64,000 nt of DNA, taken from NCBI RefSeq assembly GCF_902167145.1, contig NC_050097.1, forward strand, positions 113,059,982 to 113,123,981, written 5' to 3'. The notes under the pieces were generated by a model. It did no database searches, was not told the DNA's origin, and saw nothing but the letters and a program-made list of their open reading frames with translations. Origin of the DNA: Zea mays (taxonomy: Eukaryota > Streptophyta > Magnoliopsida > Poales > Poaceae). Of this stretch, positions 7,868-56,636 are shown piece by piece. The translations under genes and the position numbers were made by a program. How positions within the stretch are numbered: position 1 is the stretch's first letter; each line of letters begins with the position of its first letter.

Positions 7868-7893
7868 TTTCCCTTTCAATCTCCCCCTTTTTG
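7868..7893 (-). other. Polypurine tract of the Opie/Ji-like element
   Basis: On the minus strand AAAAAGGGGGAGATTG followed by AAAGGGAAA directly precedes the TGTGCC start of the 3' LTR. This matches the usual Opie/Ji arrangement. Confidence 0.85.
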
Positions 7894-11600: not shown

Positions 11601-11871
11601 AGTTATATCCCATATTGCATAATTGACTAACTGATAGTAAATTATATCCTAGAGACTCTACTAAAAACACATTAGAGATAGAGTGCTCATTTGAAATTGC
11701 AATTTTACCTAACCCTTTTACCTTGCCTTGATTCCCATCACCGAATATAATTGAATCTTGGGAATCCTTATTTTTGACGTAGGAGGTGAACATTTTCTTC
11801 TCCCCCGTCATATGGTTTGTGCATCCGCTGTCGATAATCCAGCTTGAACCCCCGGATGCATAAACCTGCAA
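8665..11871 (-). pseudogene. Opie/Ji-like pol: protease, integrase, RT, RNase H (one in-frame stop)
   Basis: Domains run in Copia order. The protease site is [13 protein letters not shown] near residue 12. Next are the GAG-pre-integrase HRRLAH and CAAC, then integrase with [17 protein letters not shown] and [12 protein letters not shown] has [21 protein letters not shown] and the catalytic [10 protein letters not shown]. RNase H has STAEAEYVA, DIRHHFLRD and ADIFTKPLD. The two open stretches (9547-11871 and 8665-9537) are in the same frame and are separated only by a TAG at 9547-9549, just after the RT catalytic box. The stop is consistent with a C-to-T change in a CAG codon. Everything downstream looks intact, so this is a recent inactivation. 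Pol is in a different frame from gag. Confidence 0.93.
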
Positions 11872-11878
11872 GGCAAAT

Positions 11879-14263: not shown

Positions 14264-14298
14264 CTCTTCGGGCGGTTAGTCCCTTTCTTGAAGAGAAC

Positions 14299-14311
14299 GG
14301 CTCTGATACCA
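14299..14311 (-). other. Primer-binding site of the Opie/Ji-like element
   Basis: On the minus strand TGGTATCAGAGCC lies two bases after the end of the 5' LTR. It is complementary to the 3' end of plant initiator tRNA-Met. Confidence 0.92.
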
Positions 14312-14313
14312 AT

Positions 14314-15543
14314 TGAGAGCACCTAGAGGGGGGGGGTGAATAGGTGATCCTGTAAAACTTAAACTTATAGCCACAAAAACTTGGTTAATCGTTAGCATAA
14401 TAGTTGCCAAGTGGCTAGATAGGAGTCAAAACACAATAACCACAAAAATTCAATCACAGAGATGACACGGTGGTTATCCCGTGGTTCGGCCAAGTACAAA
14501 ACTTGCCTACTCCACGTTGTGGCGTCCCAACGGACGAGGGTTGCAATCAACCCCTCTCAAGCGGTCCAAAGACCCACTTGAATACCACGGTGTTTTGCTT
14601 ACTTTTTTTTCAATCCCGTTTGCGAGGAATCTCCACAACTTGGAGCCTCTCGCCCTTACAATTGAAGTTCACAAAGAAACACAGAGCAAGGGTGGGAATG
14701 AGCAACGCACACAAGACTTCAAAAGATCAGAGCAACAACACGCACACAAGCAGCAACAAGAGCTCGCAACACAACTCAACGAGTTCACAACTCCACAAGA
14801 GCTCTATATGCTATCACAATGAAACGAACGCGTGAGATCGATGTCTTGGTGCTTAGGAATGTTGTAGGAATGCTTGGTGTCCTCCTCCATGCGCCTAGGG
14901 GTCCCTTTTATAGCCCCAAGGCAGCTAGGAGCCGTTGAGAACAAATCTGGAAGGCCATCCTTGCCTTCTGTCGTCGGGCGCACCGGACAGTCCGGTGCAC
15001 ACCGGACACTGTCCGGTGCCCGATTTCTTTCCTTAACAGGCGCAGCCGACCGTTGCCGACTGTTGCAGATCTGGCGCACCGGACAGTCCGGTGCACACCG
15101 GACAGTCCGGTGCCTCCTTCCGATCGTTGGCCAGACCACGTGTCGCGCGCAGATTCCGCGGTCGACCGTTGGCTCGGCCGACCGTTGGCTCACCGGACAG
15201 TCCGGTGAATTTTAGCCGTACGCCGTCGGCAAATTCCCGAGAGCGGCGTCTTCAGGTCGAGGCAGCCTGGCGCACCGGACACTGTCCGGTGCACCACCGG
15301 ACAGTCCGGTGCCCCAGACCGAAACAGCCTGTTGGCTGTACACAGCCAACAATCTCCTTTTCTTCTTCTCTCTGTTTCTAACACTTAGACAAATATATTA
15401 GTACACAAAACAAATGTACTAAGGCTTAGAAACATACCTTTACTTGTGATTTGCACTTTGTTCATTCATGGGCATGGATTCACATTTAAGCACTTGTGTT
15501 TGCACTCAATCACCAAAATACTTAGAAATGGCCCAAAGGCACA
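14314..15543 (-). repeat. 5' LTR of the Opie/Ji-like element
   Basis: A 1230-bp copy of the 3' LTR with a promoter TATA motif on the minus strand (CTATAAAA at 14906-14913). It holds seven of the CACCGGAC-type palindromes where the partner LTR has eight. A palindrome unit is missing near 15195 and about ten bases are added near 15050. Confidence 0.93.
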
Positions 15544-30721: not shown

Positions 30722-31735
30722 CTACTTGACCGGTGAGTAGGGAGGCACCGGCGTAAGCAACGGCTGACCGGAGAAGAATGCTTCGAGGTTGGCGATGGCG
30801 TGGTCTCGCAGGTCCGACATGGACTCCGCCGTGAAAACCGCCACATGAGGCGTCATGACCACGTTGTCCATGGAGAAGAACTCGCGGCGCGCTCCGGGCT
30901 CGCTCTCGAAGACATCGAGGCCGGCGCCGGCGATCCTGCCCTCCTTGAGCGCCCTGACCAGCTCGGCCTCGTCGACGTTGGCGCCCCTGCTGATGTTCAC
31001 GACGACCCCGTCCGTCCCTAGCGCCTCCAGGACGTCCCTGCCGACGATGTGCCGCGTCGCCTCGTTCAGCGCGCACGCCACGACGAGCACGTCGGAATCC
31101 GCCGCGAGGTCGCGGACGTTGGCGAAGTATCTGTAAGGGACCGAGTCCCTGGGCGTTCTAGAGTGGTAGCAGACGGTGCAGCCGAGAGCCTGGAGCCTCT
31201 TTGCGATCTGCGAGCCGATGTTCCCCAAGCCAACGACGCCCACACGCCTGCCACCGACCTTGGAGCCGAGTGGGTGGTCACCCTGCACCGGCCAGAGGCC
31301 GCGGCGGACGAACCGCTCGGCGGCCGACACGCGGCGGAGCACGTCGATGAGCAGGCCGACGGCGTGGTCGGCGACGTCGGCCGAGAACACGCTGCCGGAG
31401 TTGGCGACGGCCACGCCGCGGCGCGCGCACTCGCCGAGGTCGATGAAGTCCACGCCCGCCGCCAGGGACAAGACGCAGCGGAGCGACGGCACGGCGTCGA
31501 GGAACGCGGCGTCCACGCGGGCCGGGCCCGCGCCCACCACGACGGCGGCGCGAGGGGGCTCCGGAGCGGCCGCCGCCGCGGCGAGGAAGGCTGGCAGCGG
31601 CTCACCTGAGGAGGGGGAGGCGAAGAAGTCGAGGACGCGGAAGCGCGACCGCAGAGCGGCGTGGAAGGACTCGTCCACGTGGGGGACGAGGAGGAGGACG
31701 ACCTTCGGAGCCGCGGGCTCGCCGCCTGACGCCAT
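30722..31735 (-). CDS. HPR3: Glyoxylate/hydroxypyruvate reductase (HPR3-like)
   Basis: A 337-residue D-2-hydroxyacid dehydrogenase in one uninterrupted frame. It would reduce hydroxypyruvate and glyoxylate with NAD(P)H, a side route of photorespiration. The nucleotide-binding loop GLGNIG is at 169-174. YHSR follows at 190-193, with no acidic residue at the end of the second strand, which suggests NADPH preference. Catalytic positions are Arg250 (NISRGANVDE), Glu279 (LDVFESEP) and His297 (TPHVAVFT). The start at 31735 was chosen because MASGGEPAAPKVVLLLVP fits the family N-terminus. The frame stays open for 45 further codons to an ATG at 31870, which could give a longer, possibly targeted form. 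The gene is GC-rich, unlike the flanking AT-rich sequence, and looks intact. HPR2-type enzymes are the alternative. Confidence 0.9.
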   Translation of the reverse strand: MASGGEPAAPKVVLLLVPHVDESFHAALRSRFRVLDFFASPSSGEPLPAFLAAAAAAPEPPRAAVVVGAGPARVDAAFLDAVPSLRCVLSLAAGVDFIDLGECARRGVAVANSGSVFSADVADHAVGLLIDVLRRVSAAERFVRRGLWPVQGDHPLGSKVGGRRVGVVGLGNIGSQIAKRLQALGCTVCYHSRTPRDSVPYRYFANVRDLAADSDVLVVACALNEATRHIVGRDVLEALGTDGVVVNISRGANVDEAELVRALKEGRIAGAGLDVFESEPGARREFFSMDNVVMTPHVAVFTAESMSDLRDHAIANLEAFFSGQPLLTPVPPYSPVK

Positions 31736-31930
31736 CGTGCCGGCCGGCGGAGGGAGAGGAGGCCGTGCGTAGTTGTTGAGACTTTGCGAGTGATTAGGAC
31801 CTCTAACCTCTTTCAGGTGGAAGGTAGTTTTCTTGTGCAGGGGCCGACTTCCATCCACTTGCAGTGTCACTGTTCAGAAGCAGCGAGATGAGCCCTCAGC
31901 ATCCTTTGACTTCGCGACGCCGGTGATGCA

Positions 31931-36261: not shown

Positions 36262-39218
36262 TGTAACGCCCTGAATTTGGGGGTAGAATTTTTTTCTTCT
36301 TTTCTCTCACCAAATTCGGGCGTTACTCTCTTTTCTCTTTCTTGTTTCGCTTCTTTTTCCCAATTTCAAACCAGTATAGAGGCAGGTGTCCGTGTCATGT
36401 ATAAACCAAAACCTAAGTGTCATGGGTGTTGCATCATGCCGAAGCACATTTCTTTGTCTGATGTTGAGTGTTCGTCTCGTTCCGTTCCGGATTTCGATTC
36501 GCGATTTAATTCCGTTTAGTGGTCCGCGCTCGTCGTGGGTTTTCGATCCGCGAAGTGGCCCGGCCCAGCCTAGACCAGCCCAGCCCAGCCCTGCCCGGCC
36601 CTGCGCGCCCCTGGCGCCCAAAACCCCCCCATGCGCCCCCTTCTCTCTCTCTCTCATTTGGATCTCCCGCGCAACAACCTCTCCTCTCCCTCTTCCACCT
36701 CTCTCTCCCCGTGGTGCCCTAGGATTTGGAGACGGTGATCACCGGATTTTGGACCCCGAGGTGAGCTCCCCTCCCCTCCCCTTCTCCTCTCTCTCTCCCT
36801 CTCCCTCCTCTTCTCTCCCCCGCGCGCGCCCTCTCTCTCCCCCTGCTCGCGCGCGGCCCCGCCCGCCCCCTGCTCGCGCGACGGCGCCCCCCGCCCTTCC
36901 CCAGCCCCGGCGCGGCGACGCCCCCGCCCGCCCCGGCCCCGCTCCCTGCTTCCCCGGCGCGGCGCGGCCCCCCGACCCGGCCCTGCGCGCGGCGGCGCGG
37001 CCCCGCCCGGCCTCCCCTCGCGGCGGCGCCCGCGGCCCCGCCCTGCTCCCCCCCGCGGCGCGCGACCCCGCCCCGGCCTCCCCGCGGCGGCGCTCGCCCC
37101 CGTCCCAGCCCCGTGCGCGGCGGCGCGGCCCCTGCTCGCCTGGTGCGGCCCCAGTGGCTCCCTGCTCGCCCGGCGCGGCCCCCGGAGCGACGGCGCGGCC
37201 CCTGGCCGGTTCAACCGCCCCCCGGTTCAACAGCCCCGGCCCGGTCGCCCCGCCCCCGTCCCGGCCTCGCCCGACCGTATCCTCGCTCGCCCGCGCTCGC
37301 GATGATTATTTGTTAGTCGATAGTTAAGGTCAAACTCCGTTAGTTAGCGTGCTGCGTCGCGCGCTTCGCCGCGCGACGGATTGTCTAAATTCAGATTCTA
37401 TCTATGTGCTGCGTCGTGCGCTTCGTCGCGCGACGATCCATTTTAATTTCAGGTTGTTTAAGGTGTAACGCCGCGTGTGTATTCACGCGACGTTCCACTT
37501 TGGACTCAGTTTAGTCGACGTATGCTGTCGCGCGTCTCGCCGCGCGACCATCCTCTTTATTTATCTCCACCTGCTTATAATGATTAGATATGAAACATGA
37601 CTTTACTTTACGCTAAACATAGTGTCTACATTAAATTTCCTTCCATTAAGCGAGTGGTTAATTTATAATCATGCAACGTGATCGTTTCTCGACTGTCTTT
37701 TCCTCTTTCTCTCTTAACCGTACTCGCGAACCCGCGTGGAACGTCTGTTTACTTATTGCATTCTATTGTATGGTGTACTGTTCTTTTGTATTAAATATGT
37801 GGATGTATGTATGTTTGCAATCGCATAGAGATCGATCCGGTCGAAGAGCCCGAGGAACCCGCAGGAGAAGCCCCTGAGCAGCAGTCGGTTGGTGGAGGCA
37901 AGTGTCCCTTGACCTATCTCTGTCCTATTCATTATTTAATTCACCTCCCGCTTTACACATTTATGCCTAAGGATTGACTAGCTTTTGTTATCCATGTCCT
38001 TGTTCACCTATTTGGGTTGGATTATTATTATTTAGCTTTATGCTATTGCTCAAACTCTAATCAATGAACATGATGAGATTATCTATGATACGCTGTTTTC
38101 CCCTCTCTTATTATGATGTTGTACTTGTGGTCTTCAAGGGGGCTCGAGCGGTTTCTCGAGTGCCTCTCCGTAAGGACCTGTTCTATGGATGACCGCCCGG
38201 GAAAACAGTGCAACCATGAGGGTGGAATGGGGTGCCCTTAGCTGAATAATTAGAGGATCCGGGGTGTAGTTCGCTTCGCCGTCGAGCCGTCAATGGGGCT
38301 CGGTGTATGCGGCTCGCTCTGCCAAGGTTGATTTGTCCCTTGGGGAGGAGTGCGGTACATTTAGGAAACCTAACGGGCGACTACAGCCCCGGGGAATCTT
38401 TGTAAAGGCTACGTAGTGAAACCCTGCCTATTCACCTTGGCAGTGTTTAAGGGTTTGATCGGCCCGAGGCAAGAGGGAATCACGGCTTATGGGTAAAGTG
38501 CACAACCTCTGCAGAGTGTTTGAAAACTGATATATCAGCCGTGCTCGCGGTTATGAGCGGCAAAGGGAGCTCCAGTGATTAGTGGTACTTGATCAGAGAT
38601 ACTTTGGTACATGTGGCTATGAGATCGACGGTTTTGGTTATGACTATGGTGCTGGTAAGTGGTATTCTTTCCGTTTGGAAAGGGTACATCGGGTTAAGAA
38701 CTTGGGTTAATGCTAAAACTTGGTTTTCTATTAGTAAATAATAATCTGACCAACTAAAAGCAGCTGCTTGACTTATCCCCACATAAAGCTAGTCCACTAC
38801 AGCCAAACAGGATACTTGCTGAGTATGTTGATGTGTACTCACCTTTGCTCTACACACCAAACCCCCCCATCCCCAGGTTGTCAGCATTGCAACCACTGCT
38901 CAGGCGAAGATGAAGCTGTGGAAGGAGACTTCCAGGAGTTCTAAGACTACGACGAGTTCTAGGCGTGGGTTAGCGGCAACCCCCAGTCGGCTGCCTGTGA
39001 AGGCCGCGGTTATCTACGTTTCTTTTCCGCACTTTGATTTATTGTAAGGACTATATGGACGTCTCAGACGTATGATGTAATCGACTATTTCCCTTCTTAA
39101 TACTATTTTGAGCACTGTGTGACGATGTCCATGTTATGTAACTGCTGTGTACGTGAATAACTGATCCTGGCACGTACATGGTTCGCATTCGGTTTGCCTT
39201 CTAAAACTGGGTGTGACA
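36262..39218 (+). repeat. 5' LTR of the Tekay-like element
   Basis: 2957 bp. A TATA motif TATAAA is at 36400. The stretch 36540-37300 is extremely GC-rich with CGGCG-type runs. A consensus-like splice donor GAG|GTGAGC is at 36760/36761. Compared with the 3' LTR it shows about 27 substitutions by hand count, plus indels in the GC-rich part. Confidence 0.92.
36400..36405 (+). promoter_or_regulatory. TATA motif in the Tekay 5' LTR
   Basis: TATAAA in the context CATGTATAAACC, with no competing match nearby. It is the likely start of element transcription, about 360 bp upstream of the candidate splice donor. Confidence 0.5.
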
Positions 39219-39222
39219 TAAG

Positions 39223-39235
39223 TGGTATCAAAGCC
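39223..39235 (+). other. Primer-binding site of the Tekay-like element
   Basis: TGGTATCAAAGCC lies four bases after the LTR end. It is complementary to initiator tRNA-Met except for one base (A where G is usual). Confidence 0.88.
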
Positions 39236-39478
39236 GTGCTGACTGTAGGACCGCTAACCTAGAATAGAATGGTCGTTCTAAGGACTATAGACCTCTGTCC
39301 CTGCCTTGACTTTGATATCCCTTCAAAAGTTGGTCATACCGACCAAACCTATGTTCTACTATATATTATACCTTGCTGAAAATCATGTTTTATTCTAATC
39401 CTTCATTTATTTATGGTTCATTACTTGCTGGTCATATTAATTCTGTTCTCACCCTTTTGCTTGCGATGTCTTTTGTAG

Positions 39479-40492
39479 ATGGCTCGACTTAGACACACTG
39501 CACGAAAGTCTGTCATCCCCTTCTTACCCTCCCGCCTTGCTGAGCGTCCGCTTCGCCGTCCCATGGCCGGACAGTCCAGCCACTTGGAGAGATTGCACCA
39601 CCGCCTGCATGAGGAGCAGGAACGTCGACGACAGGAGCAGCAAGGCTCTTCCTTCTCGGTCCAGCAGGAGATAGAGTCCGTGAGGAGCTGCTCCCCTGTG
39701 CTTCCTCTGGAGGTGCCCCCTGCACCATCACTGGGTGCCCCAGCTTCTGGAGTAGCTCCTGGAGGAGACCCAGACGACGGAGGTGGCGACGACAACTCGA
39801 GCCACGACATCGACTTCTCTGCTAACCAAGAGCCGGAAGGATGGGTTGCTCGACCCATCACTCGCGACGCTGCTCGCGGGTGTCACTTCCACGATGCGCT
39901 CGACACCCTGCTACGTCGGGCACTTAACCGGCATACTTGGTCCATCGAGTATCGTTGTGTGGTCTACCAGCACAGTCGCGGGGTCTACCCGGACCGCTGG
40001 GAGGCGACCTTCTTGGTGCGCCGCCCGGAGAACAGTCTCCAGGGTGCGGAGGCCTGCTCAGAGCACTATTCTATCTCTGAGCGGGACTCAGCTGAGGTAG
40101 CCATGCAAGATGCTGCACGGCGTGCGCTTTCGCACTACTGCTCGGTTTTCGGTGGGGTAGCTGACGGCCTTGACCTGAAGTATTACCCCCGCCGTCCATC
40201 TGGCAGCACAGGAGGCGTGATTGTCTCACCTGTCGGTGAGGGAAATCCTAGGTTGAGCAGCACAGTCAACCTAGCCGCCGTGCTAAACACGGAGCTGGAC
40301 CATGCATTAGACGAGCTGAGTAGGGCTCGTGCTGAGATCGCCCTGCTGTGGGCTGAGCGCGCGGAACGTCGTCACCTGGACGGTGGTTCCCCCGCTCCCG
40401 TCGGGACTCAGCACCCGTACTGCTCACCTCGGCGTGGACACCAGTCTTATGGCAACCCCGACTGCAAGACCAAGATAACTCTAGAACCATAG
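39479..40492 (+). CDS. Extra ORF upstream of gag in the Tekay-like element
   Basis: A continuous 337-codon frame between the PBS and gag, in sense orientation. Residues 1-60 are basic and contain a charged helix (HLERLHHRLHEEQERRRQEQ). Residues 78-112 are Pro/Gly/Asp-rich. Residues about 155-222 run WSIEYRCVVYQ, WEATFLVRRPE and ERDSAEVAMQDAARRAL, a strand-strand-strand-helix pattern resembling a double-stranded-RNA-binding domain. Residues 262-300 form a probable coiled coil. It shows no Gag, protease or RT motif. Its ATG directly follows CTTTTGTAG, a splice-acceptor-like sequence. Function is unknown; RNA binding is an inference from the pattern only. Confidence 0.75.
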   Translation: MARLRHTARKSVIPFLPSRLAERPLRRPMAGQSSHLERLHHRLHEEQERRRQEQQGSSFSVQQEIESVRSCSPVLPLEVPPAPSLGAPASGVAPGGDPDDGGGDDNSSHDIDFSANQEPEGWVARPITRDAARGCHFHDALDTLLRRALNRHTWSIEYRCVVYQHSRGVYPDRWEATFLVRRPENSLQGAEACSEHYSISERDSAEVAMQDAARRALSHYCSVFGGVADGLDLKYYPRRPSGSTGGVIVSPVGEGNPRLSSTVNLAAVLNTELDHALDELSRARAEIALLWAERAERRHLDGGSPAPVGTQHPYCSPRRGHQSYGNPDCKTKITLEP

Positions 40493-40897
40493 ATCGTTAG
40501 AGTTGGATCTTGTAATTAATACGAAATACATACGTAGAAGCTACAGTCTTAGCGTTAGTCTCGGTCTTAGTTAGTCTTAGTTAGACAGGGTAGTTTGCTA
40601 TATCCTGTGCATTTATGGTTGTCATGATGAACTATGTTTGGTTTGGATCTTTGTAATGACTGTCACCAGAGTGTGGGTATCCCCTGCATTTTGGTTTACC
40701 TGTTATATGTTAATGGAGTTAGTTATATAGTTGGGAAACCTTTTATTCCACTTTCCTCTTTATCTAAGAAGCTGTGTGGTCTGTGTTGGAGATCAGTGAA
40801 GATGTTCATCTGTTCAGTGCTGTTGAAGAATTCTATACTCTTTTCTTATGCTGCAAGATTTGCCAGATCAGTTCTGATGTGTGGTTGCATTCTGCAG

Positions 40898-42628
40898 ATG
40901 TCAGAGAACAGGCGCAGAGGAGGAAGGCGTGCTCAGCAGGAGCGAGCCGCTCAACAGGAGGAGGTGCCCCAGCAGCAGCACCTGCCGCCCCCGCCCCCGA
41001 TGTCCATCGAGCAGATGTTTCTGATGCAGACTCAGGCAGTTCAAGCCATCGGTCAGACTTTGGCCGCCATTCAGCAGCAGCAGCAGCAACAGCAGCAGGC
41101 CCCACCTCAGCCTCAGATGCCCAGAGACAAGCGTGCTGAATTCATGAGAGGTCATCCACCAACGTTTGCTCATTCTTCTGACCCCATGGATGCTGAAGAC
41201 TGGCTGCGCACTGTGGAGCGGGAGTTGCATACCGCTCAGTGCGATGACAGGGAGAAAGTCCTGTATGGTCCCCGTCAATTGAGAGGAGCAGCCCAATCAT
41301 GGTGGGAGTCTTACCTCGCCACCCATGCCCACCCTGACGCCATCACCTGGGAAGAGTTTAGAGGAAGCTTTCGTCAGTACCATGTTCCTGCAGGTCTGAT
41401 GACAGTGAAGAAGGAGGAGTTCCTGACCCTCAAGAAAGGGTCATCGTCTGTCAGTGAGTACCGAGACAGGTTTCTGCAATTGTCTCGCTATGCTCCTGAA
41501 GATGTCAACACCGACGCCAAGCGGCAGTACCGTTTCCTGAGAGGCTTGGTTGACCCTCTTCAGTACCAACTGATGAATCACACCTTCCCGACATTTCAGC
41601 ACCTGATTGACAGAGCAATCATGACAGAGAGGAAGCGTAAGGAGATGGAGGATCGTAAGCGCAAAATCAGTGGACCCCAGCCTGGAAGCAGCAGTCGTCC
41701 TCGTTTCTCAGGCAATCAACCTCAGCAGTTCAGGCAGAACCAGCGTCCACCTCAGCAGCATCAGTAGTTCCAAAGGCAGTATCCTCAGCACCAGTACCAG
41801 AACCGTCAGAGCAATCAGTCAGGAGGTCAGTTTCAGAGGCAGAATCAGCAGGCACCTCATCTTCCTGCCCCAGCAAGCCAGCAGAACAATCAGGCAGCAC
41901 CAGCTCAGGTTGGAAACAGGGCATGTTTCCACTGTGGAGAGCAAGGCCACTGGGTGATGCAATGTCCGAAGAAGGCAGCCCAGCAGCAGTCAGGCCCCAA
42001 CGCCCCAGCAAAGCAGAATGTGCCTCAATCTGGAGCAGGCAATCGCTCTCAGCCGCGCTATAATCATGGAAGGCTGAACCACTTGGAGGCTGAAGCAGTT
42101 CAAGAGACCCCCGGCATGATAGTAGGTATGTTCCCAGTCGACTCCCATACTGCAGAAGTGTTATTTGATACTGGAGCAACGCATTCTTTCATTACTGCAT
42201 CATGGGTAGAAGCACATAATCTTCCAATTACTACCATGTCAACCCCCATTCAAATTGACTCAGCCGGTGGTAGAATTCGAGCCGATAGCATTTGTTTGAA
42301 TATAAGTGTGGAAATAAGGGGGATAGTGTTTCCCGCCAACCTTATAGTAATGGGTACTCAGGGAATATATGTCATCCTAGGGATGAATTGGCTAGATAAG
42401 TACCAGGCAGTTATCAGTTGTGATAAAAGGACAATCAAGTTGGTGTCCCCACTAGGAGAGGAAGTGGTGACCGAGTTAGTCCCGCCTGAGCCAAAGAAAG
42501 GAAGTTGTTATCAGATAGCTATTGATAGCAGTGAAGCAGACCCAATTGAGAGTATCAGGGTTGTGTCCGAGTTCCCAGATGTGTTTCCAAAGGACTTACC
42601 GGGTATGCCACCAGAGCGGAAAAGTTGA
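40898..42628 (+). pseudogene. Gag and protease of the Tekay-like element (one amber codon)
   Basis: The start MSENRRRGGRRAQQE at 40898 directly follows CATTCTGCAG, an acceptor-like sequence. The N-terminus is Gln/Pro-rich with a CAG-repeat polyQ run. The capsid core has DAEDWLRTVERELH, LRGAAQSWWES and TWEEFRGSFRQYHVP. Next are the zinc knuckle CFHCGEQGHWVMQC near 41930 and the protease box VLFDTGATHSFI near 42165 with VILGMNWLDKY. A TAG at 41765-41767 splits an otherwise single frame in the Gln-rich linker before the zinc knuckle. The frame is then lost near 42620, where an extra base lies in an A-run. Confidence 0.9.
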
Positions 42629-45451
42629 GTTTGCCATAGAGCTTCTTCCTGGAACCGCCCCTATCTTCAAGAGAGCTTACAGAATATCTGGACCAGAGTT
42701 GGTTGAGCTTAAGAAGCAGATTGATGAGCTATCAAAGAAAGGTTACATCCGGCCAAGCACCTCGCCTTGGGCCGCTCCTGTCTTGTTCGTGGAAAAGAAA
42801 GATGGCACCAAAAGGATGTGCATCGATTACCGAGCTTTGAATGAAGTCACGATCAAGAACAAGTATCCCTTGCCAGAATAGAAGATCTGTTCGACCAGTT
42901 GAGAGGAGCCAGTGTGTTCTCCAAGATTGATCTGAGGTCAGGTTATCATCAGCTCAGGATCCGACCTTCGGACATTCCGAAGACGGCATTCATTACCAAG
43001 TATGGTTTGTATGAGTTCACAGTGATGTCTTTTGGTTTGACCAATGCGCCAGCGTTCTTCATGAACTTGATGAACAGTGTATTCATGGATTACCTTGATA
43101 ATTTTGTGGTGGTATTCATTGATGACATTCTGATTTATTCTCAAAGCGAAGAAGAGCACACAGATCATTTGAGGATGGTATTGCAGAGATTGCGAGAGCA
43201 CCAGTTATATGCAAAGTTGAGCAAGTGTGAATTCTGGATCAATGAAGTCCTGTTCTTGGGTCACATAATCAACAAAGAAGGATTGGTTGTGGATCCGAAG
43301 AAAGTGGCAGACATTTTGAACTGGAAAGCGCCAACAGATGCTAGAGGAATCAAGAGTTTCATTGGAATGGCCGGATATTATCGGCGATTCATTGAAGGGT
43401 TTTCAAAGATTGCGAAACCAATGACAGCGTTGCTAGGCAACAAAGTTGAGTTCAAGTGGACCCAGAAATGCCAAGAGGCCTTTGAAGCGCTGAAAGAGAA
43501 GTTGACTACAGCGCCTGTCCTAGTCTTGCCTGATGTGCACAAGCCCCTCTCGGTGTATTGCGATGCTTGTTACACAGGTCTGGGATGCGTGTTGATGCAA
43601 GAGGGAAGAGTTGTGGCTTACTCGTCCCGACAGCTGAAGGTTCATGAGAAGAACTACCCAATCCATGATCTAGAGTTGGCAGCAGTGGTTCACGCACTGA
43701 AGACATGGAGGCACTATTTGTATGGACAGAAATGCGATGTTTACACAGACCACAAGAGTCTGAAGTACATATTCACTCAGTCCGAGTTGAATATGAGGCA
43801 GCGAAGATGGTTAGAGTTGATCAAAGATTATGAGTTGGAGATTCATTACCATCCAGGCAAAGCAAACGTAGTGGCAGATGCTTTGAGCAGAAAGAGTCAA
43901 GTCAATCTGATGGTCGCTCGTCCGATGCCTTATGAGTTGGCCAAAGAGTTCGACAGGTTGAGTCTCGGATTTCTGAACAATTCGCGAGGAGTCACAGTTG
44001 AGTTGGAACCTACCTTAGAGCGCGAAATCAAAGAAGCGCAGAAGAATGATGAGAAAATCAGTGAGATCCGGCGACTGATTCTAGATAGCAGAGGCAAAGA
44101 TTTTCGAGAAGATGCAGAAGGCGTGGTATGGTTCAAAGACCGCTTGTGTGTTCCCAATGTCCAGCCCATTCGGGAGTTGATTCTTAAGGAAGCTCATGAG
44201 ACGGCCTATTCGATTCACCCTGGCAGTGAGAAGATGTATCAAGATCTGAAGAAGAAATTCTGGTGGTACGGAATGAAGAGGGAAATCGCAGAGCATGTGG
44301 CTATGTGTGATAGTTGTCGAAGAATTAAGGCAGAGCACCAGAGACCTGCTGGATTGTTGCAACCGTTGCAGATCCCTCAGTGGAAATGGGATGAAATTGG
44401 TATGGATTTCATAGTCGGATTGCCTCGCACTCGAGCCGGCTACGATTCCATCTGGGTAGTCGTGGACCGTTTGACCAAGTCAGCCCACTTCGTACCTGTC
44501 AAGACCAACTATAGTAGTGCAGTATTGGCAGAATTGTATATGTATCGGATCGTTTGTCTTCATGGTGTGCCAAAGAAGATAGTGTCAGACAGAGGAACAC
44601 AGTTCACCTCTCATTTCTGGCAGCAGTTGCATGAAGCTTTGGGCACGCATCTGAATTTCAGTTCAGCTTATCACCCGCAGACAGATGGCCAGACCGAAAG
44701 GACCAATCAAATTCTTGAAGACATGTTGAGAGCCTGTACGTTGCAAGATCAGTCCGGATGGGATAAGAGATTGCCTTATGCAGAGTTTTCCTATAACAAC
44801 AGTTACCAGGCCAGTTTGAAGATGTCACCATTTCATGCGCTCTATGGAAGGAGTTGCAGAACTTCGTTGCAATGGGATCAGCCTGGAGAGAAGCAAGTGT
44901 TTGGGCCAGACATTTTGCTTGAAGCCGAAGAGAACATCAAGATGGTCCGAGAGAATCTGAAGATAGCGCAATCGAGGCAGCGAAGCTATGCAGACACAAG
45001 AAGAAGAGAGCTGAGTTTCGAAGTCGGAGACTTTGTCTATCTGAAAGTGTCGCCGATCAGAGGAGTCAGAAGGTTCGGAGTCAAAGGCAAGCTAGCACCC
45101 CGCTACATTGGTCCGTATCAGATCCTTGCAAGACGTGGAGAAGTGGCCTATCAGCTCAGTTTGCCCGAGAATTTGTCTGCTGTGCATGATGTTTTTCATG
45201 TGTCTCAGTTGAAGAAGTGCTTGCGTGTACCAGAGGAGCAGTTGCCAGTGGAAGGTCTTGAAGTCCAGGAGGACTTGACCTACGTTGAGAAGCCAGTCCA
45301 GATCCTTGAGGTTGCAGACCGAGTCACCCGAAGGAAGACCATCAGAATGTGCAAAGTCAGATGGAATCATCACTCTGAAGAAGAAGCAACCTGGGAGCGT
45401 GAAGATGATCTGATGGCTAAATACCCTGAGCTTTTTGCTAGCCAACCCTAA
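42622..45451 (+). pseudogene. RT, RNase H, integrase and chromodomain of the Tekay-like element
   Basis: RT motifs are [29 protein letters not shown] and the catalytic [11 protein letters not shown] at residues 74-76 of the 850-codon frame that starts at 42899. RNase H shows [19 protein letters not shown] and [11 protein letters not shown]. Integrase has an HH-CC zinc site ([15 protein letters not shown]), then [18 protein letters not shown] and DGQTERTNQ for the D-D-E triad. The C-terminus is a chromodomain ([28 protein letters not shown]), which in this lineage steers insertion to modified chromatin. An extra base near 42620 and a missing base near 42877 shift the frame over about 85 codons, and the frame is then restored. 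Confidence 0.92.
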
Positions 45452-45487: not shown

Positions 45488-47752
45488 TGTAACGCCCTGA
45501 ATTTGGGGGTAGAATTTTTTTCTTCTTTTCTCTCACCAAATTCGGGCGTTACTCTCTTTTCTCTTTCTTGTTTCGCTTCTTTTTCCCAATTTCAAACCAG
45601 TATAGCGGCAGGTGTCCGTGTCATGTATAAACCAAAACCTAAGTGTCATGGGTGTTGCATCATGCAGAAGCACATTTCTTTGTCTGATGTTGAGTGTTCG
45701 TCTCGTTCCGTTCCGGATTTCGATTCGCGATTTAATTCCGTTTAGTGGTCCGCGCTCGTCGTGGGTTTTCGATCCGCGAAGTGGCCCGGCCCAGCCTAGC
45801 CCAGCCCAGCCCTGCCCTGCCCGGCCCTGCGCGCCCCTGGCGCCCAAAACCCCCCCATGCGCCCCCCTTCTCTCTCTCTCTCATTTGGATCTCCCGCGCA
45901 ACAACCTCTCCTCTCCCTCTTCCACCTCTCTCTCCCCGTGGTGCCCTAGGATTTGGAGACGGCGATCACCGGATTTTGGACCCCGAGGTGAGCTCCCCTC
46001 CCCTCCCCTTCTCCTCTCTCTCCCTCTCCCTCCTCTTCTCTCCCCCGCGCGCGCCCTCTCTCTCCCCCTGCTCGCGCGCGACCCCGCCCGCCCCCTGCTC
46101 GCGCGACGGCGCCCCCCGCCCTTCCCCAGCCCCGGCGCGGCGACGCCCCCGCCCGCCCCGGCCCCGCTCCCTGCTTCCCCGGCGCGGCGTGGCCCCCCGA
46201 CCCGGCCCTGCGCGCGGCGGCGCGGCCCCGCCCGGCCTTCGCGTCGGCGCCCGCGGCCCCGCCCTGCTCCCCCCCCGCGGCGCGCGACCCCGCCCCGGCC
46301 TCCCCGCGGCGGCGCTCGCCCCCGTCCCAGCCCCGTGCGCGGCGGCGCGGCCCCGACGGCCCCTACTCGCCCGGTGCGGCCCCGGCGGCTCCCTGCTCGC
46401 CCGGCGCGGCCCCAGCGTGGCCCCGGCGCGGTCCGGCCCCCGGCGCGGCCCCTGGCCGGTTCAACCGCCCCCCCCCCCCCCCCCGGTTCAACAGCCCCGG
46501 CCCGGTCGCCCCGCCCCCGTCCCGGCCTCGCCCGACCGTATCCTCGCTCGCCCGCGCTCGCGATGATTATTTGTTAGTCGATAGTTAAGGTCAAACTCCG
46601 TTAGTTAGCGTGCTGCGTCGCGCGCTTCGCTGCGCGACGGATTGTCTAAATTCAGATTCTATCTATGTGCTGCGTCGTGCGCTTCGTCGCGCGACGATCC
46701 ATTTTAATTTCAGGTTGTTTAAGGTGTAACGCCGCGTGTGTATTCACGCGACGTTCCACTTTGGACTCAGTTTAGTCGACGTATGCTGTCGCGCGTCTCG
46801 CCGCGCGACCATCCTCTTTATTTATCTCCACCTGCTTATAATGATTAGATATGAAACATGACTTTACTTTACGCTAAACATAGTGTCTACATTAAATTTC
46901 CTTCCATTAAGCGAGTGGTTAATTTATAATCATGCAACGTGATCGTTTCTCGACTGTCTTTTCCTCTTTCTCTCTTAACCGTACTCGCGAACCCGCGTGG
47001 AACGTCTGTTTACTTATTGCATTCTATTGTATGGTGTACTGTTCTTTTGTAATAAATATGTGGATGTATGTATGTTTGCAATCACATAGAGATCGATCCG
47101 GTCAAAGAGCCCGAGGAACCCGCAGGAGAAGCCCCTGAGCAGCAGTCGGTTGGTGGAGGCAAGTGTCCCTTGACCTATCTCTGTCCTATTCATTATTTAA
47201 TTCACCTCCCGCTTTACACATTTATGCCTAAGGATTGACTAGCTTTTGTTATCCATGTCCTTGTTCACCTATTTGGGTTGGATTATTATTATTTAGCTTT
47301 ATGCTATTGCTCAAACTCTAATCAATGAACATGATGAGATTATCTATGATACGCTGTTTTCCCCTCTCTTATTATGATGTTGTACTTGTGGTCTTCAAGG
47401 GGGCTCGAGCGGTTTCTCGAGTGCCTCTCCGTAAGGACCTGTTCTATGGATGACCGCCCGGGAAAACAATGCAACCATGAGGGTGGAATGGGGTGCCCTT
47501 AGCTGAATAATTAGAGGATCCGGGGTGTAGTTCGCTTCGTCGTCGTGCCGTCAATGGGGCTCGGTGTATGCGGCTCGCTCTGCCAAGGTTGATTTGTCCC
47601 TTGGGGAGGAGTGCGGTACATTTAGGAAACCTAACGGGCGACTACAGCCCCGGGGAATCTTTGTAAAGGCTACGTAGTGAAACCCTGCCTATTCACCTTG
47701 GCAGTGTTTAAGGGTTTGATCGGCCCGAGGCAAGAGGGAATCACGGCTTGTG
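45488..47752 (+). repeat. 3' LTR of the Tekay-like element, first part
   Basis: Collinear with 36262 onwards, including the GC-rich block. It is broken at 47752 by the coding-free element. Its last bases, TTGTG (47748-47752), are the target duplication of that element. Confidence 0.92.
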
Positions 47753-50700
47753 TGTCACACCCGGGTTTTAGGGGGTCCAAAGCCCGGGCGCGAACATAAA
47801 CACCAGGTGTGCTGGGACCAAGTCTCACACATATGATGCATAGTGGTACAGGATCGAATGTCACATCTTTACTATATAACAGGAGTTATATACAAAATAA
47901 TTAAATAATTACATCATATGAGGAAACGATCCAGCAACCCAAAGTTGACTGGGAGACGACGGCCTAGATCTCTCACGAACCCATCGCAGCATCCTCCTTG
48001 CGCCTCATCCTGCGGTACCTGTTCTTGACCTGTGGGGGGGGGGGGGGGTGTGAGACAGCAAGAGTGAGCTCACATACGTTCATCGCTCAACAAGTTGTGG
48101 GGAATAATGTGCAAGAGCTCACCAAAGGTGGGAGCTCACGTGAAGTGTAAGGCTTACCAAAGAGGATGGTTAGAGCTGAGCATTGCTTTTAAAGTTGGTC
48201 AAAATTTTATTAGCAATTACTAAGTATAAGTAAATACCAACCCAATTAAGTAGTAGAACAAAAGTAACATCATCACCTGCGATGCAATGCATATGACAAA
48301 TTGAATTTAGTTCCATAAATTAATCATCAGAGAGTCCTGAGCTGCTCATGACCGTGAGCTCGGCTAGTATACCAGTTTTACACTCTGCAGAGGTGGTACC
48401 CTTTACCCACAAGTCATGTTACCCATCTGCCAAGAGATCGCGACTTCCCATACACCTCTACCGAGGAGGCGAGGCAGGGTAACACTACGAGGCCTTTACA
48501 AAGTTCCACTAGCTTCAGAAAACCCGCTACAGTTTATGGGAAGCTCCAATGCAGGAATCCCTTGCAGGACCACCATCGCAGCAAAATCCTCCCGAGGGCC
48601 TCCCTACACTGACCACTCCCCTACTGCCCTTGCCCCTTTCGGGTAAGGTAGTCCTCCACTAGCTTTCCTAATTAGTCAGCCAAGGGCGTCCATAAACCCT
48701 TGTGGTGGCACGTGTTTCTCAAGTTAAGCTCTATGTTCCAATTAACATTTAATGATCTTGTCATGAACATAAATGAAATAACAACATAACTGGAACATAG
48801 ATATAATGAAATATTAACCCAAAACCATATAAAGCAGTAGCAGAACTACCCAAGTGATTCAGGGGTAAACAAGGTATTCAGGATAAACAAACTAGGGTGA
48901 CCTATTGGGTCCCATCAAAATTAACCTATGCGGATCATTATGATTAATTAGAACATGAGTGGGTAAAAGAAGTGATCAAGGGCACAACTTGCCTGGCACT
49001 TGAGATTCCAGGTACCAACTTGCTTTTCAGATGACACGTGTCCTTGCGCTAGTCGTAGCAATACAAGCAAACATGGTATAGATAAAATTAACATCACACC
49101 AAACATAAGAAAAAACTGAGTAATAATTATCTACGCGCTGCTACGAGCTCGTGGGAACGAGAACCACTAAGATCGGAGTTACGATTATTAAGTTACGATT
49201 TTCTGAAGTTATTTAATGACTAGAATAGAGTTATTCATGTGGATAATTTTAAATCAAGTTTCATTGTAAGACAAAGATACAGGATGATAAACAATATTTA
49301 AACAAAATAAATTCCACTGGAATGAATCGATTTGGGGTTATATATTTTAAGTTATGAATTTCTGAAGGTTTTATGCAATTAAACAAGATTAAGTACTAGA
49401 TAAATTTTAATGAGTCTTTCATGTCAGAAAAGTGGCACAAATGGATAGACAATAATATTATGAAAATTTAGGAACTGGAATGGAGGAATTTGAAGTTCAT
49501 TTGAATTTTCTATGAATTTTACAATCCCTAGCATTTATTTCCATACTAAAAATCTATTTTCCAATTTATTTATTCAATTTCAGACTGTACTGGATTGGGG
49601 CTCATTTACAGAAAACTGCAGGGGGTTCTGGGTAAAACGCCTACGACTCAGGGAACAGTGTATAGGATGGCGGGTTGATTCTGCGAAATCTTGGGGTCTC
49701 TTTAGTAAAAAGACACGGCCGAAGGGGTATCCGATGATCTTAGCCGTCAGATTAGGAACGGACGCCCCAGATTAAATCTGACCAACCCGAACCGGTATGC
49801 GTCACGAGCGCTCAGATCTATATCCAACGGCTCGAATTTAATGAAGCCGAGATCTCGCCGTAGCCCTCAGATCTAGATCAACGGCTACCGCTACCCGAGT
49901 CCGAATCGTTACCCTGGATCAAATCGCGGTCGTATATCGTGAGATCCACGGTCCATACACTAACTGACCCTGAGCTGTTCATCCTGAGATCAACGGCACT
50001 GGTGTTTTCTCCTTTCTTCCGCTCATCCGGTGAGCCGAGCACCCAGGCAGAGAACGCCCATGGCCGCGCCATATGGCCGACGAGGTCCGCAGCCCCAAAC
50101 CCAAATCAAACTAGTCTAGTCCCAAATGGAACCCAAGGCGAACACAGGGGAATGGGTTCATACCGAAACTGGCCTGGAGTCGAGCACAGATTGCGGAGGA
50201 ATGTGGTCCACGGTGGATCTTCACCGACGGTGAGAAGTCCCGAGGCGCTGAAGCTCTACTGCAACACTTCCGTCAGATTAGGACCTACCCGCGCGACGGT
50301 ATGGAGTCCACGACGGCGACGACGGAGCACTAGTATCCCGGCACAGCGAGCCCAGGGATGAGTTCGACTTTCTCTCTCTTTCCGCGCTCTGACGTCCTCT
50401 GCGCTCCATGGATGATGGGGCAAGGTAGGGCCGACGGAAGTGTTTTTATACCCCAAGAACGGATAGAGTCCGAGCGCGATTCAAGGAATCGGATCTGCAG
50501 CCCCGCGGTGAATTCGTTAATTTAGTTACGGAGCGCGTGTGGGAGATAACGCGCAATCTGTTGGAGCTTGCGGCCGGGGAAAATGACAAGTAGGGCCCAC
50601 CCGCCATACTCAGCGAATTCCCACGGAGCGAACGAGCAATGGCCTGCCAGCAGGGCCAGTCTGTCAGCGCAAGGAGCATCAGCGCGCGGTGGGACTTGGT

Positions 50701-51198
50701 GGGCCGCGTGGATGGGAAGCTGACTGGGCCGAGAAGTGTGGCGGCCGGCCCAATTTGGTTTGGTCCCTTTTATTCTTTTCTTTTTATCCTCTATTCTCTT
50801 TTCTATATTTCCAAGTTCAATTTGAATTCGAATTTGAATTCAAACTTGTGCCTATTTTATTCTCAATTCATGTTGTGGAATTTAGAATAACAACTTTGGA
50901 GATATAATTATATCATATATTTTTTTTATATATCATTTCTTCTCTTCTCTTTTCATTTTTAAAATCCCCATTTTCAAGCTAGGGTTTACTCCAACTTTAG
51001 AATTATTATCTTATTATTATTATTCTTATTTTTATTTTAATGCACAAACATAACTCCAATATGATGCATGTTCTTTTTTTATCATTAGTTTTAATTCATC
51101 TCTCTTAATTATAGGTATGCTCTTTTCATGATGCAACTAAGGCACATAGAATAAGGAAATCACTATATATTCCTTGCATACAATTTTGGGGTATTACA
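47753..51198 (-). repeat. 3' LTR of the coding-free element
   Basis: About 3446 bp and nearly identical to 52458-55902. It contains a poly-G run near 48035. At 50819-50850 there is an AT palindrome-like stretch built from TTTGAATTCGAATTTGAATT. A polypurine tract (AAGGGGGTAGGATT, minus strand) follows at 51199-51212. Confidence 0.92.
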
Positions 51199-52457
51199 AA
51201 TCCTACCCCCTTAAAAATAATCTCGTCCTCGAGATTAATAAGAAAGGGGATCCAACAAGTTTGGTTTGTAGTCTTTGCTTTAGTTTCTAGTTGGTTTTAA
51301 TACCAAAAGATTTGTTTTTTTTAATATCACAAATTATCATGTGATTAGGAAAGCATGGGTATATATATAGCTACTTTATTATGTAGGATGAAAGATGTAT
51401 CCAAAGCATGGATAGGTTTGGGTAGGGTAAGGAAGGACTCCATCCTAGATTGTGGATCTTGACTCATCTTGGTGATCCCGCTTGATCCTTGAAGACTTGA
51501 GTTGGTGCTTATCCTTTCTTGATGAGGTGGATCATCTTCGGTCTCCAATCTTGGTATCTCCATCTGAGCTAGGGAGTTGTAGTTAAGATAGCTAGGGTCT
51601 GTGGATAGGACTTTTTTTAATAGGTTTACATAGACGGATTATGTAACTTATTGGGAGTGTATGGCTGAGTTGATCTATGGCACTAACTTAGGCTTAAGTG
51701 AATTAAGAGTATGGTTTTATCCTTTGTACCAGCATTAAGAATCACCCACAAGGTTAAATCATAATAGATTAGATAGGGCCTAATTTTTGTTGCCAACATT
51801 ATCTAACTTATTTAAGTAACTCAAATTTGGATTAGATCATGGTTGTTATTCTAGAGTGGGATCAATATGATAATTAGGGCAAGATAAATCCATAAGGATA
51901 AGGTGGAATCTTTTGAGGTCAGTTAGATCTATTAAGATGGGATAAGTAAAGTGGTTAGGATAAGATGAGTCTATTAAGATAAGAAAGAATCTTTCAAGAC
52001 AAGATGGAGCTATTAGGCTAGATATACTTTTAATGGGGGGTAATCTAGGTTGACTGGTTATCTTATGAATATATTTTGTTATGCCTATATGTATATGTAG
52101 ATGCAATTGTGGACATTACTCCACAACTCATCACACTCAACCAAAGATCCAAATCAGACAAGTATCATAAGAACAAACATTCAAGTATGTAGACAACTAT
52201 AAAAATAGTTTTGATTTTGTTCCTTAAGAGTAGGTCTCCTATCCCTAAAAGTCACTTTAGGTACGGAATTTCAAAGTGTGAAATCCACATTTGTCTTTTA
52301 GAAATAAAAGGTAAGAATAATCAGAGTGAAGCGGAAATAGATGAGAAAGATTAAGAGAAGTTTAGAAAAGAATCAGAGTAGCAAAGGTAAGCAGATAATG
52401 GTTGTCCAGTTCTATCTAGGTTTCGTCCTACAGTCAACATTCCTCTGATACCACTTC
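51199..52457 (-). other. Internal region of the coding-free element
   Basis: 1259 bp, AT-rich, with only short chance frames. The left end carries the polypurine tract and the right end the PBS. Repeated GATAAG/AAGATAAG-type motifs occur between 51880 and 52020. No Gag or pol remnant was recognised. Confidence 0.8.
52443..52453 (-). other. Primer-binding site of the coding-free element
   Basis: On the minus strand TGGTATCAGAG, a few bases after the LTR end, is complementary to initiator tRNA-Met. Confidence 0.88.
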
Positions 52458-55400
52458 TGTCACACCCGGGTTTTAGGGGGTCCAAAGCCCGGGCGCGAAC
52501 ATAAACACCAGGTGTGCTGGGACCAAGTCTCACACATATGATGCATAGTGGTACAGGATCGAATGTCACATCTTTACTATATAACAGGAGTTATATACAA
52601 AATAATTAAATAATTACATCATATGAGGAAACGATCCAGCAACCCAAAGTTGACTGGGAGACGACGGCCTAGATCTCTCACGAACCCATCGCAGCATCCT
52701 CCTTGCGCCTCATCCTGCGGTACCTGTTCTTGACCTGTGGGGGGGGGGGGGGTGTGAGACAGCAAGAGTGAGCTCACATACGTTCATCGCTCAACAAGTT
52801 GTGGGGAATAATGTGCAAGAGCTCACCAAAGGTGGGAGCTCACGTGAAGTGTAAGGCTTACCAAAGAGGATGGTTAGAGCTGAGCATTGCTTTTAAAGTT
52901 GGTCAAAATTTTATTAGCAATTACTAAGTATAAGTAAATACCAACCCAATTAAGTAGTAGAACAAAAGTAACATCATCACCTGCGATGCAATGCATATGA
53001 CAAATTGAATTTAGTTCCATAAATTAATCATCAGAGAGTCCTGAGCTGCTCATGACCGTGAGCTCGGCTAGTATACCAGTTTTACACTCTGCAGAGGTGG
53101 TACCCTTTACCCACAAGTCATGTTACCCATCTGCCAAGAGATCGCGACTTCCCATACACCTCTACCGAGGAGGCGAGGCAGGGTAACACTACGAGGCCTT
53201 TACAAAGTTCCACTAGCTTCAGAAAACCCGCTACAGTTTATGGGAAGCTCCAATGCAGGAATCCCTTGCAGGACCACCATCGCAGCAAAATCCTCCCGAG
53301 GGCCTCCCTACACTGACCACTCCCCTACTGCCCTTGCCCCTTTCGGGTAAGGTAGTCCTCCACTAGCTTTCCTAATTAGTCAGCCAAGGGCGTCCATAAA
53401 CCCTTGTGGTGGCACGTGTTTCTCAAGTTAAGCTCTATGTTCCAATTAACATTTAATGATCTTGTCATGAACATAAATGAAATAACAACATAACTGGAAC
53501 ATAGATATAATGAAATATTAACCCAAAACCATATAAAGCAGTAGCAGAACTACCCAAGTGATTCAGGGGTAAACAAGGTATTCAGGATAAACAAACTAGG
53601 GTGACCTATTGGGTCCCATCAAAATTAACCTATGCGGATCATTATGATTAATTAGAACATGAGTGGGTAAAAGAAGTGATCAAGGGCACAACTTGCCTGG
53701 CACTTGAGATTCCAGGTACCAACTTGCTTTTCAGATGACACGTGTCCTTGCGCTAGTCGTAGCAATACAAGCAAACATGGTATAGATAAAATTAACATCA
53801 CACCAAACATAAGAAAAAACTGAGTAATAATTATCTACGCGCTGCTACGAGCTCGTGGGAACGAGAACCACTAAGATCGGAGTTACGATTATTAAGTTAC
53901 GATTTTCTGAAGTTATTTAATGACTAGAATAGAGTTATTCATGTGGATAATTTTAAATCAAGTTTCATTGTAAGACAAAGATACAGGATGATGAACAATA
54001 TTTAAACAAAATAAATTCCACTGGAATGAATCGATTTGGGGTTATATATTTTAAGTTATGAATTTCTGAAGGTTTTATGCAATTAAACAGGATTAAGTAC
54101 TAGATAAATTTTAATGAGTCTTTCATGTCAGAAAAGTGGCACAAATGGATAGACAATAATATTATGAAAATTTAGGAACTGGAATGGAGGAATTTGAAGT
54201 TCATTTGAATTTTCTATGAATTTTACAATCCCTAGCATTTATTTCCATACTAAAAATCTATTTTCCAATTTATTTATTCAATTTCAGACTGTACTGGATT
54301 GGGGCTCATTTACAGAAAACTGCAGGGGGTTCTGGGTAAAACGCCTACGACTCAGGGAACAGTGTATAGGATGGCGGGTTGATTCTGCGAAATCTTGGGG
54401 TCTCTTTAGTAAAAAGACACGGCCGATGGGGTATCCGATGATCTTAGCCGTCAGATTAGGAACGGACGCCCCAGATTAAATCTGACCAACCCGAACCGGT
54501 ATGCGTCACGAGCGCTCAGATCTATATCCAACGGCTCGAATTTAATGAAGCCGAGATCTCGCCGCAGCCCTCGGATCTAGATCAACGGCTACCGCTACCC
54601 GAGTCCGAATCGTTACCCTGGATCAAATCGCGGCCGTATATCATGAGATCCACGGTCCATACACTAACTGACCCTGAGCTGTTCATCCTGAGATCAACGA
54701 CACTGGTGTTTTCTCCTTTCTTCCGCTCATCCGGTGAGCCGAGCACCCAGGCAGAGAACGCCCACGACCGCGCCATATGGCCGACGAGGTCCGCAGCCCC
54801 AAACCCAAATCAAACTAGTCTAGTCCCAAATGGAACCCAAGGCGAACACAGGGGAATGGGTTCATACCGAAACTGGCCTGGAGTCGAGCACAGATTGCGG
54901 AGGAATGTGGTCCACGGTGGATCTTCACCGACGGTGAGAAGTCCCGAGGCGCTGAAGCTCTACTGCAACACTTCCGTCAGATTAGGACCTACCCGCGCGA
55001 CGGTATGGAGTCCACGACGGCGACGACGGAGCACTAGTATCCCGGCACAGCGAGCCCAGGGATGAGTTCGACTTTCTCTCTCTTTCCGCGCTCTGACGTC
55101 CTCTGCGCTCCATGGATGATGGGGCAAGGTAGGGCCGACGGAAGTGTTTTTATACCCCAAGAACGGATAGAGTCCGAGCGCGATTCAAGGAATCGGATCT
55201 GCAGCCCCGCGGTGAATTCGTTAATTTAGTTACGGAGCGCGTGTGGGAGATAACGCACAATCTGTTGGAGCTTGCGGCCGGGGAAAATGACAAGTAGGGC
55301 CCACCCGCCATACTCAGCGAATTCCCACGGAGCGAACGAGCAATGGCCTGCCAGCAGGGCCAGTCTGTCAGCGCAAGGAGCATCAGCGCGCGGTGGGACT

Positions 55401-55902
55401 TGGTGGGCCGCGTGGATGGGAAGCTGACTGGGCCGAGAAGTGTGGCGGCCGGCCCAATTTGGTTTGGTCCCTTTTATTCTTTTCTTTTTATCCTCTATTC
55501 TCTTTTCTATATTTCCAAGTTCAATTTGAATTCGAATTTGAATTCAAACTTGTGCCTATTTTATTCTCAATTCATGTTGTGGAATTTAGAATAACAACTT
55601 TGGAGATATAATTATATCATATATTTTTTTATATATCATTTCTTCTCTTCTCTTTTCATTTTTAAAATCCCCATTTTCAAGCTAGGGTTTACTCCAACTT
55701 TAGAATTATTATCTTATTATTATTATTCTTATTTTTATTTTAATGCACAAACATAACTCCAATATGATGCATGTTCTTTTTTTTATCATTAGTTTTAATT
55801 CATCTCTCTTAATTATAGGTATGCTCTTTTCATGATGCAACTAAGGCACATAGAATAAGGAAATCACTATATATTCCTTGCATACAATTTTGGGGTATTA
55901 CA
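52458..55902 (-). repeat. 5' LTR of the coding-free element
   Basis: 3445 bp. On the minus strand it starts TGTAATACCCC at 55902 and ends TGTGACA at 52458. It matches the left LTR except for about ten substitutions, mostly transitions, and length changes in G and T runs. Confidence 0.92.
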
Positions 55903-56636
55903 TTGTGGGTAAAGTGCACAACCTCTGCAGAGTGTTTGAAAACTGATATATCAGTCGTGCTCGCGGTTATGAGCGGCCAAGGGAGCTCCAGTGATTAGTG
56001 GTACTTGATCAGAGATACTTTGGTACAGGTGGCTATGAGATCGATGGTTTTGGTTATGACTATGGTGCTGGTAAGTGGTATTCTTTCCGTTTGGAAAGGG
56101 TACATCGGGTTAAGAACTTGGGTTAATGCTAAAACTTGGCTTTCTATTAGTAAATAATAATCTGACCAACTAAAAGCAACTGCTTGACTTATCCCCACAT
56201 AAAGCTAGTCCACTACAGCCAAACAGGATACTTGCTGAGTATGTTGATGTGTACTCACCCTTGCTCTACACACCAAACCCCCCCCCATCCCCAGGTTGTC
56301 AGCATTGCAACCACTGCTCAGGCGAAGATGAAGCTGTGGAAGGAGACTTCCAGGAGTTCCAAGACTATGACGAGTTCTAGGCGTGGGTTAGTGGCAACCC
56401 CCAGTCGGCTGCCTGTGAAGGCCACGGTTATCTACGTTTCTTTTCCGCACTTTGATTTATTGTAAGGACTATATGGACGTCTCAGACGTATGATGTAATC
56501 GACTATTTCCCTTCTTAATACTATTTTGAGCACTGTGTGACGATGTCCATGTTATGTAACTACTGTGTACGTGAATAACTGATCCTGGCACGTACATGGT
56601 TCGCATTCGGTTTGCCTTCTAAAACCGGGTGTGACA
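55903..56636 (+). repeat. 3' LTR of the Tekay-like element, second part
   Basis: Resumes after the inserted element with the duplicated TTGTG. It is collinear with 38494-39218 and ends GGTGTGACA at 56636. Confidence 0.92.

Follow-up and report, generated by a model that had tools for sequence, protein, structure and literature searches.

Purifying selection on ORF0 of a maize Tekay chromovirus and a possible histone H3-like start of its protein

In grasses, Tekay chromoviruses, a group of long terminal repeat (LTR) retrotransposons, carry an accessory gene upstream of gag. It was described as ORF0 in Retrosat2, RIRE3, RIRE8, ZMsat2, Sorsat2 and Brasat2 (Gao et al. 2012, PMC3485330) and as 5'aORF in maize Tekay and sorghum Sb7 (PMC11728184, 2024), and the Tekay lineage includes Retrosat-2 in the classification of PMC6317226. 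Here we analysed 64,000 nucleotides of Zea mays DNA (the window; NC_050097.1, positions 113,059,982 to 113,123,981; coordinates below are counted from its first base). From its sequence, the frame at 39479-40492 was identified as this already known ORF0 (5'aORF) of grass Tekay (Retrosat2-type) chromoviruses. The initial annotation knew of no extra frame as standard for Tekay, and the two descriptions above correct this. By description the element is like those of PMC3485330, being a grass Tekay/Del element with an extra frame upstream of gag-pol and LTRs of about 3 kb.

The 5'aORF proteins in PMC11728184 have, as predicted here, an alpha/beta fold with a long C-terminal helix, and there a weak Foldseek resemblance to a DRBM protein (TM 0.35-0.37) led to the idea of a silencing suppressor. 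PMC3485330 instead gives hydrolase-like, acyltransferase and transporter functions, obtained by homology modelling, and states that ORF0 evolves faster than ORF1. In that paper the terms 'histone', 'intron', 'double-stranded' and 'dsRNA' do not occur and 'splic' occurs once; 'histone', 'mimic' and 'splic' are absent from the main text of PMC11728184, and its section 2.5 and Discussion contain no selection test. What is added here is a test of selection versus decay, a constraint map, a match in the register of histone H3 and a pair of acceptor-like sites.

Selection during transposition and decay after insertion

The frame at 39479-40492 on the forward strand was confirmed as genuine; it lies between the primer binding site and the gag ATG at 40898. 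In 2000 base shuffles of 39219-40897 the longest forward-strand ATG frame had a mean length of 81 and a maximum of 262. A short frame with an upstream ATG (39466-39492) runs across the ORF0 start in another reading frame, and its ATG is GTG in locus L007. Of 7997 scored entries in a protein database search, 846 (120 listed) were relatives of ORF0 with E <= 1e-3. Genome searches covered 2.18 Gb in ten large contigs; with the protein P0001, 119 matches were scored among 11183 candidates, and with P0107, which is more distant, 118 among 15247. An exact DNA pattern of the ORF0 N-terminus matched 5275 times genome-wide and its reversed control 0 times.

Two sets of copies were compared. The A copies were picked by the ORF0-gag spacer, which avoids choosing on the protein; 40 were scored of 2497 candidates (the window and 39 others) and 37 were kept. 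The C copies, 17 of which carry stops, were the 20 best protein matches to P0107. They represent a second, P0107-like subfamily in the same genome with many stop-containing ORF0 copies, one member of which lies about 36 kb past the right end of the window (C2:113159464).

The initial annotation had argued for coding constraint from an undamaged 337-codon frame in a copy with lesions in both gag and pol. The frame is indeed open from its ATG, and the lesions were found as an in-frame gag stop at 41765-41767, beyond which the reading frame continues open to 42625, and two frame changes in pol near 42.62 and 42.88 kb. The constraint is real, but the intactness of this one copy is weak evidence for it, since among the 40 spacer-chosen copies 18 have an undamaged ORF0 and 14 have undamaged gag codons 1-289 (to just before the stop).

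Neutral expectations for replacement (N) and silent (S) changes were taken from the context-dependent mutation spectrum of the leader, spacer and LTR. Among the 37 A copies, ORF0 singletons (168 replacement, 79 silent; 13 stops) were at 0.95 of the neutral expectation (p 0.68). Variants present in two copies (N/S 26/31) were at 0.37 of neutral (p 2.5e-4) and those in at least three copies (31/39) at 0.35 (p 2.2e-5), and singletons differed from shared variants in Fisher's test (p 2e-5). As singletons are near neutral and shared variants are constrained, these results show that ORF0 codes for a protein which purifying selection maintains during transposition of the element, and that copies, once inserted, decay roughly as neutral sequence would. 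One stop variant in each of the shared classes counts against this. In gag (35 copies) shared variants were more constrained (0.30 and 0.08 of neutral), and singletons were below neutral as well (0.70, p 0.016). No significant replacement deficit was detected in the control frames, which were the spacer read as a frame, with few sites, and two other ORF0 frames; one alternative ORF0 frame had a replacement excess (2.14, p 0.011). Pairwise pN/pS over the A copies was 0.40 for the whole of ORF0 and 0.28 within its residues 121-224; gag gave 0.31.

Purifying selection across copies, which the initial annotation had proposed to check, was also seen against the diverged subfamily. The overall dN/dS of the window ORF0 versus the 20 C copies was 0.19, the three stop-free copies agreed with this, and it is in line with Ka < Ks in the ORF0 of four Oryza elements (mean Ka 0.2574, Ks 1.6471; PMC3485330). 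In the same comparison dN/dS was 0.056 for residues 1-56, 0.145 for 121-224 and 0.68 for the linker at 57-120. Between subfamilies, pN/pS was 0.34 for residues 2-11, 0.03 for 12-27, 0.16 for 28-56, 0.08 for 136-149, 0.29 for 150-200, 0.19 for 201-224, 0.13 for 259-280 and 0.41 for 281-300. Constraint was thus shown to lie in the N-terminal 56 residues, with its peak at 12-27, in residues 121-258 and in the first half of the C-terminal helix, and the linker is nearly free.

Predicted structure, alternative roles and the N-terminus

ORF0 could be a structural or packaging partner of Gag or the genomic RNA, with a basic N-terminus that contacts RNA or Gag and a helix that assembles particles. The first 30 residues are basic (8 K+R versus 1 D+E), the constraint at 12-27 is very strong and a long C-terminal helix is predicted. 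However, nothing in this analysis ties ORF0 to Gag, and we regard this role as a serious possibility that is nevertheless unlikely.

A fold like that of a double-stranded-RNA-binding domain (dsRBD) had been suggested for the middle of the protein in the initial annotation. The order of its parts stood, as AlphaFold2 predicted alpha-beta-beta-beta-alpha at residues 136-224; the fold itself did not gain firm ground. The AlphaFold2 model had low confidence (predicted local distance difference test about 50), as had a second model with only short strands, and this low confidence counts against the account favoured below. Pfam dsRBD (PF00035) was absent from the families matched by 37 members up to E 10, in searches where HMMER filters drop weak hits. 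Helix 2 of a classical dsRBD carries a basic KKxAK motif. Here the lysines expected for RNA binding are replaced by a conserved DSAEA/DTAEA: in 107 rows, position 203 was D in 104, 204 was S/T in 103, 205 was A in 95, 206 was E in 101 and 207 was A in 101. These features, together with a domain net charge near zero (14 K+R, 13 D+E) and a VIA-align list headed by HPF/pY chains, speak against ORF0 being a silencing suppressor in which a true dsRBD sequesters dsRNA and the helix dimerises. In favour of it are the predicted order, the dsRBDs 1whq (E 0.53) and HYL1 3adj (E 1.6) among 50 listed Foldseek matches, and the earlier proposal in PMC11728184; we consider it rather improbable.

In most copies the first 11 residues read M-A-R-L/I-R-H/C-T-A-R-K-S. 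Without the Met, this start matches histone H3 (ARTKQTARKS) in register at 7 of 10 positions (A1, R2, T6, A7, R8, K9 and S10), and the variable positions 3 and 5 are among those unlike H3. The register match has P 1.4e-7 under the ORF0 composition, with H3 chosen after the fact, and a 7/10 match anywhere occurred in 2 of 20,000 shuffles. K10 of ORF0 was retained in 37/37 A copies and 20/20 C copies (C starts were read by eye, one being shifted by a codon), and the codons 9 and 11 beside it show synonymous changes. The H3-like start and the constrained residues 12-27 suggest a contact with the H3K9 silencing system.

Several observations weigh against this suggestion. The peak of constraint adjoins the H3-like residues and is not inside them, the similarity stops at residue 10, and A2 R3 with T7ARKS was exact in just 53 of 106 long proteins, many departures resembling C>T decay. 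The first 31 residues matched no PDB sequence at E <= 10 with phmmer, and hence no histone. Tekay chromodomains are not among the aromatic-cage chromodomains (PMC6317226), and a link of the H3-like start to the element's own chromodomain is therefore not expected. Apart from these points, the abstract of a 2011 survey by Steinbauerova and colleagues is said to report 5' extra ORFs in Poaceae chromoviruses, part of them with partial histone H3 similarity, so the resemblance may already be known, perhaps for this very start.

The H3-like start might also serve as a targeting tether, in which the K9-position lysine is methylated and docks the pre-integration complex on heterochromatic H3K9me readers. 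TARKS in H3 register and the kept K10 would fit, but Retrosat2 and its homologues are described as dispersed and not concentrated in specific regions (PMC3485330), and a tether seems improbable. A chance open frame without function can be dismissed almost entirely: intactness would often be expected in one young copy (LTR Kimura two-parameter distances 0.012-0.018), but the shared-variant N/S (0.35 of neutral), the dN/dS between subfamilies (0.19) and hundreds of homologues already contradict it.

Leader, spacer and host element

The leader and the ORF0-gag spacer have 38% GC each, versus 61% in ORF0 and 56% in gag. An AG directly before the ATG was found in 37/37 A copies at both ORF0 and gag, and in C copies in 19/20 at ORF0 and 17/18 at gag (the gag start was located in 18/20). 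Leader and spacer were 73% identical between A and C, and of the last 20 bases upstream of ORF0 a mean of 18.15 was identical. Because the leader and spacer are AT-rich and filled with ATGs, and acceptor-like AGs are kept at both start codons, alternative splicing probably provides the RNAs from which ORF0 and gag are expressed. Two points count against this: only 3-9 of the last 12 bases before gag matched between A and C, and a donor-like GTAAGT near -825 was present in 8/8 A loci and at that place in 0/20 C loci. A weaker GTAAGG near -1315 occurred in 8/8 A and 11/20 C loci.

Table 1. Features of ORF0 and its host element in the window.
Feature	Position	Strand	Basis or remark
5' LTR	36262..39218	+	2957 bp, TG...CA, ACTGT directly before; blastn self-comparison and boundaries
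Leader, 5 ATGs	39219..39478	+	ends in acceptor-like TTTTGTAG abutting the ORF0 ATG
Primer binding site TGGTATCAAAGC	39223..39234	+	sequence
ORF0 (5'aORF), 337 codons	39479..40492	+	open ATG frame; homologues; constraint
Residues 2-11, ARLRHTARKS	39482..39511	+	in register with histone H3 1-10
Residues 12-27	39512..39559	+	tightest constraint between subfamilies
Residues 57-120, variable acidic linker	39647..39838	+	alignment and dN/dS
Residues 136-224, predicted alpha-beta-beta-beta-alpha (dsRBD/HPF-like) domain	39884..40150	+	low-confidence models
Residues 259-300, predicted long helix (coiled-coil-like)	40253..40378	+	structure models
ORF0-gag spacer, 10 ATGs	40493..40897	+	ends in acceptor-like TTCTGCAG abutting the gag ATG
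gag up to in-frame stop	40898..41767	+	Retrotrans_gag E 1.6e-18
Protease piece of gag-pol	41954..42628	+	RVP_2
pol piece: RT, RNase H, integrase, weak chromodomain	42899..45451	+	profile matches
3' LTR, first part	45488..47752	+	blastn self-comparison and boundaries
Nested, probably non-autonomous LTR element in 3' LTR	47753..55902	-	target-site duplication TTGTG; blastn self-comparison
3' LTR, second part	55908..56636	+	ACTGT directly after; blastn self-comparison and boundaries

The element runs in the order LTR, primer binding site (presumably of the initiator-Met-tRNA type), ORF0, gag, protease, RT, RNase H, integrase and a weak chromodomain. Its pol domains (RVT_1, RT_RNaseH, Integrase_H2C2, rve) are in Ty3/gypsy order; the Chromo match at 808-846 was weak (E 6.9e-4, 19.9 bits, under the 25.1 cut-off). 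The Tekay/Retrosat2-type trait of an LTR of about 3 kb with ORF0 upstream of gag is present, and the target duplication ACTGT stands at both ends. The 3' LTR spans 45488-56636 and is interrupted by the nested element. The two LTR parts differ by 0.012 and 0.018, which indicates recent insertion, roughly half a million years ago at 1.3e-8 substitutions per site per year.

The nested element has LTRs of about 3.45 kb that are 99.7% identical, only about 1.26 kb of internal DNA and the primer binding site TGGTATCAGAGG. Aligned in inverted orientation, the outer LTR shares 72.5% identity with a portion of the nested LTR, so the nested element is probably a non-autonomous relative. Elsewhere in the window, a 382-residue open frame that matches D-2-hydroxyacid dehydrogenase (30722-31870, reverse strand; PF02826, E 7e-52) is likely a host gene among repeats. 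A Ty1/copia element with long open frames (6632-15543, reverse strand; RVT_2, rve; LTRs 96.7% identical) lies inside gypsy-type sequence, and a MULE/Mutator transposase frame is found at 25977-26945.

A possible decoy

The account that we favour, tentatively and with somewhat less than even confidence, is that of a selected Tekay ORF0 expressed by alternative splicing, whose product would be an oligomer with a dsRBD/HPF-like domain and act as an H3-like decoy. Splicing would give each of the two ORFs an mRNA on which it comes first, and the C-terminal helix would oligomerise the protein. The middle domain, as it is without the classical lysine contacts, would bind protein more likely than generic dsRNA. 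The H3-like N-terminus, presumed to be exposed, would be presented to host H3K9 methyltransferases or readers, and ORF0 may in this way act against silencing of the element. It is doubtful whether, more specifically, the thousands of gene copies encode an H3 tail mimic fused to a dsRBD/HPF-like domain and to a helix for oligomerisation, translated from a spliced RNA of its own, and whether this product blunts H3K9-methylation silencing.

Thousands of ORF0 gene copies are present without an established role. With the present test, selection acting while elements transpose can be told apart from the decay that follows insertion, and on the map constraint is highest at the N-terminus and not in the dsRBD-like region. 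Should the H3-like start be used, these elements would allow the response of retrotransposons to H3K9 silencing to be studied in a natural system.
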